Positions 21,843-42,887 of a DNA stretch of 64,000 nucleotides are shown here, in pieces (the stretch's first letter is position 1; the number at the start of each line of letters is the position of its first letter). The DNA lies in contig NZ_JAGEVF010000010.1 of the NCBI RefSeq assembly GCF_017581965.1, forward strand, positions 62,001 through 126,000, written 5' to 3'. Under the pieces are notes generated by a model that was not told the origin of the DNA, searched no databases, and saw nothing but the letters and a program-made list of their open reading frames with translations. The position numbers and the translations under genes were made by a program. Source of the stretch: Winogradskyella pelagia (lineage in GTDB: Bacteria > Bacteroidota > Bacteroidia > Flavobacteriales > Flavobacteriaceae).

Positions 21843-21955
21843 GAGGGTTGGTTTTACATTTCTAAAGTTACTTAAATTTTACTTTTTAAATTCTTCAAAT
21901 AGCCTATATCAGATATAGTTCAGAATTACCTACTGAAAATCAAAGCTTTATAGAT

Positions 21956-21972
21956 TTGGCACGCTGTTTGCA
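21956..21972 (+). promoter_or_regulatory. rpoN-dependent: sigma-54 (-24/-12) promoter
   Basis: TTGGCACG (21956-21963) and TTGCA (21968-21972) match the sigma-54 consensus YTGGCACGrNNNTTGCW except at one purine position; GG and GC are exactly 10 bases apart. Transcription would start near 21983, 26 bases before the ATG at 22009. The gene has no TAnnTTTG box of its own. Confidence 0.75.
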
Positions 21973-22008
21973 ACTCTGTTAATGAGTTTAATTTAAAACC
22001 CTTTAACT

Positions 22009-23214
22009 ATGAAACGGATACTATATCTATTTGCTCTGTTAGTGACGGTTAGCACTACGGCAAAAACGGAAACCAACACAACATTAGGAGCAGATGCCTC
22101 CATTAACAATTATGTGAGAGGTTATGGTAATTCTTTCATATTTATTGAAGGTGGTATTGAATTCGCGGTTTTCCCAGACGGTCAGTTTGATTTTTACATG
22201 CCTAATTATGGCCCTAATGTTAATTTAGGAATTAATAGCCCTGGATTCTCACTAAGCTTCAACACTGGATTTAATTACAACCCATTTGTTCAGTACGATA
22301 GCTTTGGTGCTATAATTCAAGTTGAAAACACACCGATTTTCTATGATTTCTATGGTAGAGTGAATCAGATTGGAAACATCTTTATAAACTATAACGGGTT
22401 CGGGCGAGTAAACAGAATTGGAGGACTAAATATTTTTTATAGAAATAATGCATTTTGGAGATATTCTGGATTCATTAATATATACAATAGAGCATATGTC
22501 TGGAGACCTTGGCATCGATTTTATGCTTTACCACCTGTAGGATTTTATGTGGTAAACACATGGGCTTATAGACAGTATTATACACCTGTAAGGCACATAT
22601 GGTATAGACCGTATAGAAATAATGTAAGACACTTTAATGTTAATGGAAGACGCGGTAATGCACAATATGGAAGACGCCATAACTCTAGAGTTAACGAACG
22701 CTATGCCCAAACACCAAGAACACGGTCTGAGCGCGATACTAGAAGACGTATAGAGCGCAGAAATTCTGAGATTGAAAGAACAAGAAATACGCGTATTACT
22801 AATAATAGTGGTACAGTAAGATCTAGGTCTAACAGTAGTACTAGTGTAGCTAATACAAGGACAACAACTAGAAGCTCTAATAACTCGGTCAGAGGAAATA
22901 ACAGATCTAATGTAACACGAAGCAAAGTAACTTCAACAACACGTTCTAAATCAAGGGTTAATGCACCAAGCAGAGGAACAAGATATAATGTGACCAAATC
23001 GCGTACTAACGTGTCCAATAATAGAACAGCCTCGGTAAGAAAACCAAAAGCGACTCAGACACGTAGTTATAATAGAACGTCATCGCAAAACAGTAAACAG
23101 CGAAGTGTTGTTCAGAATAAAAGAAAATCCTCGTCAGCAAGGACGAAGCCGAACACAAGTAGAAATAACAGTAGAAGCTCGGCCAAGACAAGCTCAAGAC
23201 GAAGTCGATTCTAA
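22009..23214 (+). CDS. secreted protein with aromatic repeats and Arg/Ser-rich basic tail
   Basis: 401 residues with a signal peptide (about 1-18). Residues 95-170 hold three imperfect repeats of about 18 residues with the pattern FGxxxQ/RIxNIFxxY (for example FYGRVNQIGNIF and FGRVNRIGGLNIFY). From about 205 to the end the sequence is low complexity and very basic, built from Arg, Ser, Asn, Thr with almost no acidic residues. No enzyme motif is visible. A basic exported tail might bind polyanions such as LPS, DNA or capsule; that is inference. It is monocistronic and preceded by a sigma-54 promoter. Confidence 0.75.
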   Translation: MKRILYLFALLVTVSTTAKTETNTTLGADASINNYVRGYGNSFIFIEGGIEFAVFPDGQFDFYMPNYGPNVNLGINSPGFSLSFNTGFNYNPFVQYDSFGAIIQVENTPIFYDFYGRVNQIGNIFINYNGFGRVNRIGGLNIFYRNNAFWRYSGFINIYNRAYVWRPWHRFYALPPVGFYVVNTWAYRQYYTPVRHIWYRPYRNNVRHFNVNGRRGNAQYGRRHNSRVNERYAQTPRTRSERDTRRRIERRNSEIERTRNTRITNNSGTVRSRSNSSTSVANTRTTTRSSNNSVRGNNRSNVTRSKVTSTTRSKSRVNAPSRGTRYNVTKSRTNVSNNRTASVRKPKATQTRSYNRTSSQNSKQRSVVQNKRKSSSARTKPNTSRNNSRSSAKTSSRRSRF

Positions 23215-23239
23215 AATATGATTTTTTTGGTTGGTTAGT

Positions 23240-23285
23240 AGAAGTCCCGTTTGATGTATGCCTCAGAGCACCTTACGGGACTTCT
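23240..23285. terminator. hairpin between convergent genes
   Basis: AGAAGTCCCGT (23240-23250) pairs perfectly with ACGGGACTTCT (23275-23285) around a 24-base loop. The T-tract is poor on the right, better on the left (T-run at 23222-23228), so termination of the leftward transcript is the stronger prediction. Confidence 0.65.
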
Positions 23286-23303
23286 CATTTTAAAAAGTAT
23301 TTA

Positions 23304-24761
23304 TTATAATTTTAGATGCTTTTTTATTTGAATTGAAATATCTTCCGATATATTCCATTTATAAATTATAATGAAATAAGCAAGTCCTACAACTAAGGAC
23401 TTCAGTACAATATTAATTACAGGATAAAATGGGAAATCCCAAAAGTAAAATACAAAAGACAATATTATTACACTTATAACTACTTTTAACGATGCCAAAG
23501 TAAAGGGCTGCATGTTAAACTTGCGTTTAACATAAATCAACTTTACAGTATTGTAAACAGCAATTGCAAGAAACGTAGCTATTGCAGAGCCATTGATGCC
23601 AAATAATGGAATAAAAATTAGATTGAAAAGTACAGCTACTATTGTCAATAAAACACCAAAAACCAGAACCATCCTATAGTAATCACTATTAAACAATATG
23701 GCATTGTTATTACCTAAAGCATTGTCATACAATTTAGCTATACTAATAATAATAACCACAATTAGACCTCCCGTAAATTCTTTAGGTAATATTTGATACA
23801 ACTGATTGATGTTAAGGATAATGAGTAAAAATATAAAACCACTAACTACCAAAAGATTTAGAGAGCTGCGTTTATATAAATCTTTAAGTGCCTTAAAATC
23901 GTTTTTATTCAAATATTGTGCTGTTAATGGCATCATTATTTGATGCATAGCACGCTGAGGAACAGCGATTACAGTGGCAATAAAAATAGCGACACTATAA
24001 TAGGCAACATTTTCAATGTGTTCTAACATTAAGCCAATCATAAACTTATCAATATCTAAAATTACCATGGCTATCGAACCTGCAACAATCATAAGCAAGG
24101 CATAGTTTAGCACATTACTTATGTTATCAAGTTTTTGAAATCTAAATTTTGGTAGTCTTATGGCATAGGCATATAGCTTCATCAGCATCATCCTAACTAC
24201 ATAAACAGCTACTAAACCTAAAATAAATTCATCTGCCGTAAGCCATTCTAGATAAACGCCGTATAATAATATCATTATTAAAATTCGATGGAAAATCTCC
24301 TTCATAATGTTTCCGAATACCGTTTGCAGCTGAACCTTTGTCCAAGCATAAAAAATTTCGAAATACGCCATGGCAATAGCTATTACAAATATGTGCCATA
24401 TGTAGTTTTTAACAATAGTATTCTCTGATGCTAAAACACTAGAAATAGTCTCGTAAGAAACAAATCCTATTAATCCAACAGGTAGAACAATAAGGAATGG
24501 TAAAAACAACATTAAGGTTAAGAAACTATTGATACTATTCTTTGATTTATAACCTGAATAAAACTTAACAATGGCATTATGAACACCAAATGCCATAAAC
24601 GGCATCATTATATTGGCAGCGGACAGTACAAAAGCTACTAGCCCGTAATACTCATCGCTTAAGAAATTGGTATAAAGAAATAAGGTGTTAATAGCCCCTA
24701 TTCCAAATCCAATATAGGTGCTTATGGTATTCTTAAAAGATTGCGTAAAAACCATTCCCAT
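23304..24761 (-). CDS. polysaccharide/oligosaccharide flippase family membrane protein
   Basis: 485 residues from the ATG at 24761 (MGMVFTQSFKNT); an in-frame TTG seven codons upstream adds a non-membrane stretch unlike the family. About 12-14 transmembrane helices in the MATE-like Wzx arrangement, with GFGIGAINTLFLY at the start of helix 1. Such proteins move lipid-linked glycans across the inner membrane. It is the last gene of a leftward cluster with a glycosyltransferase and YfhO. Confidence 0.85.
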   Translation of the reverse strand: MGMVFTQSFKNTISTYIGFGIGAINTLFLYTNFLSDEYYGLVAFVLSAANIMMPFMAFGVHNAIVKFYSGYKSKNSINSFLTLMLFLPFLIVLPVGLIGFVSYETISSVLASENTIVKNYIWHIFVIAIAMAYFEIFYAWTKVQLQTVFGNIMKEIFHRILIMILLYGVYLEWLTADEFILGLVAVYVVRMMLMKLYAYAIRLPKFRFQKLDNISNVLNYALLMIVAGSIAMVILDIDKFMIGLMLEHIENVAYYSVAIFIATVIAVPQRAMHQIMMPLTAQYLNKNDFKALKDLYKRSSLNLLVVSGFIFLLIILNINQLYQILPKEFTGGLIVVIIISIAKLYDNALGNNNAILFNSDYYRMVLVFGVLLTIVAVLFNLIFIPLFGINGSAIATFLAIAVYNTVKLIYVKRKFNMQPFTLASLKVVISVIILSFVFYFWDFPFYPVINIVLKSLVVGLAYFIIIYKWNISEDISIQIKKHLKL

Positions 24762-41831: not shown

Positions 41832-42887
41832 TTAGATTTCGCCAGCATCTACATCTTTTATAAAATCAATTACCCCTTCAAAGTAAACCTTTTGGTCATC
41901 GAATTGAGATAAGTGACTGCCATCCGGACAAAGTAAAAAGCGTCCATTTTGCACCTCAGTCGAAATCCATTTCATGTGCTCTGGATCCATTGTATCGTGC
42001 GTTGCACCAATAGTTAATGTTGGCACTTTTATTGCCTTCAAACGGTCTTTTACATTCCACTGTAACAGATTAGCGTTACCCTTAATACCAAATTCACTTG
42101 GTCCTTGCATAGTTATGTAAACATCTGGATTCATATGCTTCACAGACCTATTCACCGGTTCTGGCCATTCTTCTAATGGCATCCTCAAAACATGTTTGGG
42201 ATAATAATGCTCCATAACAAGAGTAAGGTATTCTTCATTTGTATAATCCTCTTTTTCTTCGTACTCCATAATTGTTTCAAGTACTTCTTTGGGTAATTTT
42301 GGGGCAAGCACTTCGGAAGAATAGGTGTTGTAATCTTCTATAGATGCTACCATGTTAGAAATAATTAGTCCCTTTAAATTATCTTGATATTTTAATGCGT
42401 ATTGCATTCCTAAAATTCCACCCCAAGACTGCCCCATCAAATAGAAATTATCCTTATTCAACCCTAAGGCTACCCTTACCTGCTCTACCTCTTCTACAAA
42501 CCGATCTAATTTCCATAAGGACAAATCCTTTGGTTGGTCACTGTAATAAGAACCTAACTGATCATAATAATAATATTCTATACCTTCTTGCGGAAAATAA
42601 CCGTCGAAACACTCATATATCTCATGCGTAAATCCAGGTCCTCCATGTAAGAGCAAGACCTTTATTTTTGGGTTATTCCCTACCCGCTTGGTCCATACAT
42701 TAAATTCCCCTTTTGGAGTTTCAATTGGTATCATTTTAATTCCACCTGTAAATTGATCATCCTTTCCAGAATAATCTAAATAGTCAGTGTTAATAACCGA
42801 AGTAGATTCTGTATCTTTAGATGGTGATTGGTTCTGATTACATCCAAAAAAACAAAGCAGTACGAGAATAAAAGCGTTTCGTATCAT
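41832..42887 (-). CDS. proline iminopeptidase-family lipoprotein
   Basis: 351 residues, alpha/beta-hydrolase of peptidase family S33. Lipoprotein signal with Cys16 (CFFGC). The oxyanion loop is LLHGGPGF and the nucleophile elbow GQSWGG, both typical of prolyl aminopeptidases; a late Asp (ATHDTMDP) and His (DGSHLSQF) complete the triad. It would release N-terminal proline from peptides at the cell envelope, unlike the cytoplasmic enzymes of most bacteria. Transcribed alone, divergent from the DUF294 gene. Confidence 0.87.
   Translation of the reverse strand: MIRNAFILVLLCFFGCNQNQSPSKDTESTSVINTDYLDYSGKDDQFTGGIKMIPIETPKGEFNVWTKRVGNNPKIKVLLLHGGPGFTHEIYECFDGYFPQEGIEYYYYDQLGSYYSDQPKDLSLWKLDRFVEEVEQVRVALGLNKDNFYLMGQSWGGILGMQYALKYQDNLKGLIISNMVASIEDYNTYSSEVLAPKLPKEVLETIMEYEEKEDYTNEEYLTLVMEHYYPKHVLRMPLEEWPEPVNRSVKHMNPDVYITMQGPSEFGIKGNANLLQWNVKDRLKAIKVPTLTIGATHDTMDPEHMKWISTEVQNGRFLLCPDGSHLSQFDDQKVYFEGVIDFIKDVDAGEI

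Follow-up and report, generated by a model that had tools for sequence, protein, structure and literature searches.

A conserved, probable sigma-54 promoter for a predicted exported protein of Flavobacteriaceae, with a phased upstream block and a covarying 3'UTR hairpin

Introduction

Sigma-54 control in this group of bacteria has been described in F. psychrophilum, whose sigma-54 (SM4) regulon comprises chaperones and gliding genes as well as exported proteins without a known function (PMC9723704). The same study reports a single sigma-54, three PF00158 proteins and a reporter-based proof of the sigma-54 promoter at remFG-sprCDBF, and its regulon list includes Skp and a thioredoxin-family protein (PMC9723704). 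More broadly, sigma-54 has been tied to the bacterial exterior in general (PMC3162934), and a cross-phylum survey of sigma-54 covers Flavobacteriia, including tonB and grpE (PMC12316311). A further point of reference is the enterobacterial glnA-GlnZ system, in which a sigma-54-dependent mRNA carries a 3'UTR that yields a small RNA (PMC9731577).

The locus described here, from a Winogradskyella genome, resembles the F. psychrophilum regulon in having a -24/-12 promoter, an exported product of unknown function and one sigma-54, and differs in that its genome encodes two clear activators instead of three PF00158 proteins. It also has a second upstream block and a 3' hairpin, features that go unmentioned for the F. 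psychrophilum regulon in the accessible part of that report (PMC9723704). As in glnA-GlnZ, an mRNA from a sigma-54 promoter, here predicted from sequence, ends in a conserved 3'UTR.

Results

We analyzed a 64,000-nucleotide stretch of Winogradskyella pelagia DNA (the window), in which a 401-codon ORF begins with the ATG at 22009. The plus strand reads TTGGCACG-CTGT-TTGCA at 21956-21972, with GG at 21958-21959 and GC at 21970-21971 separated by N10, and 37 nt lie between 21971 and the ATG. Direct reading therefore confirmed the original prediction, which had placed a near-perfect sigma-54 promoter with exact GG-N10-GC spacing in front of this gene. The features of the promoter and the gene are as follows.

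21938..21950, plus strand: AATCAAAGCTTTA, a perfect match to WATCARNNNNTTR that begins 18 nt upstream of TTGGCA
21956..21962, plus strand: -24 element TTGGCAC, read directly and conserved across the orthologue sets
21968..21971, plus strand: -12 element TTGC, read directly; orthologues mostly have TTGT
21983..22008, plus strand: predicted 5' UTR, its start set 12 nt past the -12 base
22009..23214, plus strand: 401-aa exported protein with a signal peptide (by eye), a beta-repeat domain and a basic tail

The exact form TTGGCAC-N5-TTGC occurs twice in the window compared to 0.03 expected from dinucleotide shuffles, in agreement with the claim that such a site is rare by chance. Allowing two mismatches gave 7 sites versus 8.0 expected, a count at chance level, so that the near-exact form alone is informative. 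The second exact match, at 42020-42035, lies within an ORF on the opposite strand, and no ORF of at least 80 aa was found to start within 350 nt downstream of it. Scanning the DNA ahead of the window gene for a sigma-70 consensus gave no entry, and a profile of the genus loci revealed a conserved GAGTTTAATTTAAAACCC at 21984-22001, inside the predicted 5' UTR.

The protein is present in 64/68 Winogradskyella genomes, and the 30 best loci returned for the genus all have TTGGCA-N6-TTG, starting 51–54 nt before the ATG. A set of 80 named loci from at least 10 genera, the nearest of them Winogradskyella, shares some genomes with these 30 and carries the -24/-12 element without exception (80/80); in two of its members (L119 and L120) the reported match is a short paralogue, and the site is likewise present before the long gene. 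Across the family, the protein was detected in 174 of 199 sampled genomes (198 genera). Taking one locus per genus among the matches listed in this search, with an open frame of at least 332 codons, yielded 60 genera, all of which have a -24/-12 site: 57 were recognized by regular expression and three by eye (L221, GTGGCATAAACTTTGG; L222, ATGGCATGCTGTTTGA; L235, ATGGCACGCTGTTTGT), compared to 0.05 of 60 expected from shuffles. Together, the shuffle expectations for the window and for the 60 genera led us to reject a chance match, and conservation upstream of orthologues, a check attached to the original prediction, was observed in all three sets (30/30, 80/80 and 60/60, the first two overlapping).

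The flanking DNA is far less constant. An ungapped profile of the 30 loci from -200 to about -18 contained a single column of at least 70% identity, at -18, and a gapped alignment of the same loci showed scattered conserved columns at most further upstream; the little-conserved surroundings indicate that the promoter is kept by constraint and not by recent ancestry. Orthologues keep the GG and the TTG, and most of them have T in place of the -12 C: the base after TTG is T in 65/81 and 38/57 orthologue rows and C in 2/81 and 1/57, making the perfect GC of the window an exception. The -12 element of the orthologues is weaker than the textbook one. Judged from these alignments, the promoter is unusually well conserved, being kept almost letter for letter in the sampled family relatives. 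At the class level the protein was found in 11/247 genomes, of which four, all of one genus, lie outside the family. In Psychroserpens and some relatives (L125, L128, L130-L134, L139, L144, L146 and L148), GGTAGATTTACC-like inverted repeats are located ~45–65 nt upstream of TTGGCA, and may represent either a terminator that belongs to the preceding gene or a binding site.

The genome encodes the corresponding machinery. A single-copy rpoN was identified with E 1e-52, so that the original prediction withstood both of its refutation tests, this one and conservation upstream of orthologues; because rpoN is present in 199/199 family genomes, its co-occurrence with the gene is uninformative. PF00158 returned 11 matches, two of them clear sigma-54 activators (E below 1e-67) and nine weak (E 5e-9 or worse), so that the search for NtrC-type activators was also successful. 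One activator (L002, 387 aa) consists of a receiver and an AAA+ domain, with no HTH or other DNA-binding domain found at E up to 0.5, and in this respect is comparable to FlgR and CtcC, activators that lack a DNA-binding domain (PMC7175178, PMC3162934). Unlike in those cases, there is a second activator (L003, 422 aa), which combines AAA+ with a Fis-type HTH_8; no receiver domain was found in it, and its neighbors, read by eye, are miaB and lptE. A dyad search for an upstream enhancer returned high-ranking dyads that could equally reflect the relatedness of the loci or the terminators of genes further upstream. The proposed need for an enhancer-binding activator is thus matched by two clear candidates, although one of them has no DNA-binding domain that we could find and the dyad search identified no enhancer.

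Genome-wide, 65 sites match the -24/-12 pattern with at most one mismatch, whereas the pattern in reverse gives 21. A mechanical test placed 51 of these sites inside open frames of more than 150 codons and 14 outside, such that the excess overstates the regulon. Ten of these 14 have an ORF start within 350 nt downstream, and the genes behind them, identified by eye, include tonB-like (L043), thioredoxin (L069) and skp/ompH (L180) genes. In this genome, TTGGCACAATTTTAG is present upstream of the gene that we identified by eye as groES (L185:4354-4420, minus strand), which fits the regulation of groES by sigma-54 in F. psychrophilum.

The product of the window gene had been predicted to be secreted, and a signal peptide can be read by eye at its N-terminus. 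A conserved beta-repeat domain extends to about residue 215, with strand repeats of ~16 residues in a modest-confidence model, and is followed by an Arg/Ser/Thr/Asn-rich tail (residues 216-401; 49 K+R vs 6 D+E, pI 12). Searches of Pfam and NCBIfam gave no match at E up to 0.1. Structure prediction yielded pLDDT 58 for the domain (77 sequences) and pLDDT 36 for the full protein (14 close sequences). The top fold matches of the domain are teneurin/Rhs YD-repeat shells, with which it shares a YD-x-x-GR spacing by eye; the best E value of 0.11 is not significant and derives from the model at pLDDT 58.

In 47/80 named loci, counted within the fetched stretches, the gene is accompanied by a tandem short paralogue of 213–243 aa. 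An own -24/-12 site was found for 46/47 of these paralogues by regular expression, and the 47th (L102) has GTGGCACGCTAATTGA, with G in first position. In 3/5 loci scanned, a DUF805b RNA (RF02914) forms the leader of the short paralogue, shortly downstream of its -24/-12 site:

L119:2947-2981, DUF805b leader
L078:2061-2095, DUF805b leader
L142:1818-1854, DUF805b leader

The Rfam scan did not find DUF805b before the window gene. The window genome has a single copy of the protein family and one sub-threshold DUF805b match, whose 3-kb stretch is free of -24/-12 matches, and this lone match leaves a role of DUF805b as a general sigma-54 leader unsupported. A short paralogue in tandem that carries a separate -24/-12 site, in some cases with a DUF805b leader, is new here. 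In a non-exhaustive literature search, we recognized no paper on the gene or the hairpin described below; the two tandem colony-spreading genes of PMC9950754 are polysaccharide genes and not this pair.

The second upstream block is a perfect copy of WATCARNNNNTTR. This motif, which we take to be the IHF consensus, was counted in three sets using shuffles that preserve base composition only. Among the Winogradskyella rows (L070-L121, L145 and the window locus, including L102, labeled Flavobacteriaceae, and the short-paralogue promoters of L119 and L120), 24/54 have a perfect match (shuffle mean 0.8, max 4), positioned at -18/-19 from TTGGCA in 23/24 cases. Rows from other genera have 6/27 (shuffle mean 0.4, max 3), four of the six at -30, and the one-per-genus set has 18/58 (shuffle mean 0.99, max 4), with 16/18 at -29/-30 or -18/-19; one mismatch raises the latter count to 39/58, versus 14.6 in shuffles. 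The remaining rows of the 54, 27 and 58 are without a perfect match. The controls were less encouraging: a far region gave 1/54 and 3/27, and the reverse orientation 5/54 and 3/27, likewise above shuffles. Among the short paralogues, 14/46 have the motif, all at -18/-19.

Outside Winogradskyella the block is therefore displaced in most cases by about one helical turn (-29/-30), and this shift of 11–12 nt, close to one turn of DNA, suggests a bound, bending protein, for which the block would be a candidate site. A second promoter block with a phased position is new here. With slightly less than even probability, the block could instead be the putative site of a dedicated regulator or of the Fis-type activator and not of IHF/HU, consistent with the absence of perfect matches at the 13 other intergenic sigma-54-like sites of the genome and at groES (the L063 site has a one-mismatch match at -45) and with the presence of a TGATNATCA inverted repeat in 7/58 genera. 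However, neither the exact agreement with the IHF consensus nor the displacement by about one helical turn in other genera favors such a regulator, and the genome encodes two proteins of the HU/IHF family (PF00216).

Conservation resumes past the stop codon, where UUUUGGUUGGUUAG is retained along with a hairpin whose loop, UGCCUCARAGCA, is near-invariant.

23225..23238, plus strand: conserved TTTTGGTTGGTTAG ahead of the hairpin, with GGTTGGTT in 77/81
23243..23282, plus strand: 3'UTR hairpin with conserved TGCCTCARAGCA loop and compensatory stem changes
23292..23324, plus strand: second, AT-rich hairpin with a T-run, a possible terminator by its fold

We extracted 78 distinct 3' stretches (L100 and L106 did not yield the motif) and aligned 60 of the 78, hand-picked for diversity and leaving out L149, in which the hairpin is broken off. 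Compensatory changes were found in 9/12 stem pairs, and 95.7% of cells pair, versus 87.6% in shuffles and 29–52% in slid versions. Rfam models gave nothing in the window region 21900-23400 with an E value of 1 or less; in L128, the opposite strand has a single sub-threshold match (ARRPOF, 18.6 bits vs a gathering threshold of 127.2). With one mismatch allowed, the loop has two copies in the genome, and we attribute the second to chance, as it is located inside a coding gene, by eye a cytochrome c peroxidase-like ORF.

Of the 199 family genomes, 139 were matched by a covariance model of the hairpin (R1) with an E value of at most 0.01; the own genome has a single match. At E up to 1e-6, 63/68 matches follow the long-form gene, 963–1313 nt from the start of its domain, whereas one follows a short paralogue (in G195) and four are in genomes outside the gene matches listed. 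Weaker matches, up to five per genome, may be ordinary terminators. A covarying 3'UTR hairpin without Rfam match in the window is new here.

These weaker matches would also fit an interpretation of the 3' hairpin as merely an unusual intrinsic terminator, which we regard as a serious alternative, if one falling a little short of an even chance. The 8 nt past the GGGA arm contain a mean of 4.8 T by an approximate count that takes in the final bases of the stem, and similar GGGA-stem hairpins with T-runs stand behind many of 20 short paralogues; yet at least 6 T are present in those 8 nt in 13/77 only. Moreover, another T-tailed hairpin is found downstream of the first in 58/77 orthologues, versus 33.4 in shuffles under a permissive test, and the loop and 5' flank are conserved beyond the needs of termination. 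A consensus terminator scan lists neither hairpin, though both may fall outside the loop and G+C range that it accepts. The hairpin may thus be more than a terminator. As to possible targets of a small RNA, the complement of the conserved flank occurs at 5 sites in the Winogradskyella genome, one being the locus itself, compared to 6 for a control pattern. Flank complementarity thus gave no excess of candidate targets over the control; in this lack of enrichment, and in its unrelated gene, the locus differs from glnA-GlnZ.

Discussion

Taken as a whole, the data are best explained by a genuine sigma-54 (RpoN) promoter at 21956-21971 that drives an exported protein on demand, a reading to which we assign a probability of roughly 0.9. 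Comparison of sequences points to this promoter through the retention of the element and its spacing across the family and the presence of rpoN and activators. In the proposed mechanism, sigma-54 RNA polymerase would be held in a closed complex at -24/-12 until an AAA+ activator opens it, so that the exported protein (22009-23214) would be made on demand from a transcription start predicted near 21983. A DNA-bending protein of the HU/IHF type would use the WATCARNNNNTTR block beside the promoter, the basic beta-repeat protein would act at the cell surface, and the conserved 3' hairpin would probably control the stability or ending of the mRNA, or serve as a source of small RNA.

The inducing signal may be envelope, surface or protein-folding stress. 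By analogy to the published F. psychrophilum sigma-54 regulon, in whose list exported proteins of unknown function and the gliding operon share one co-expression cluster (PMC9723704), surface or envelope stress would be the likely inducer, and the exported, basic nature of the window gene's product points the same way. A sigma-54-dependent response to some other signal, such as nitrogen or carbon status or heat, strikes us as a credible but rather doubtful alternative: sigma-54 regulons elsewhere concern nitrogen and flagella, a number of chaperones in the F. psychrophilum regulon are co-expressed in a cluster apart (PMC9723704), and the own groES has its upstream TTGGCACAATTTTAG.

The original prediction also held that most genes here use TAnnTTTG. 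This was an overstatement, since 12/42 window genes have this motif within 120 nt upstream, a count that still exceeds the 3.8 obtained from shuffles. The prediction did not mention that one such motif, TAGATTTG at 21951-21958, overlaps the -24 element itself. That the primary sigma factor drives the gene from this motif, with the sigma-54 match incidental in the strain, is highly improbable and was rejected, because TAnnTTTG is found there in 5/81 and 3/57 orthologue rows only, compared to the -24/-12 element in all rows.

Assuming a sigma-54 promoter, the locus could constitute a dual-function unit, in which a sigma-54 stress signal elicits both a surface protein and, family-wide, a regulatory or protein-bound RNA from the 3'UTR, as a Bacteroidota counterpart of glnA-GlnZ; we consider this unlikely as it stands. 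Should the hairpin indeed be a source of small RNA, a non-coding arm would be added to sigma-54 control in Bacteroidota.

With no Pfam or NCBIfam model, presence in 174 of the 199 genomes and a -24/-12 site in all 60 genera, the gene offers a ready reporter for sigma-54 sensing in the group. Its relatives provide a natural promoter series in which the second site shifts by about one helical turn, along with a covarying 3' RNA element that has no Rfam match in the window and is widespread in the family. Experiments would be most worthwhile on this 3' RNA element and on the phased upstream block, and it is the 3' element that could surprise.
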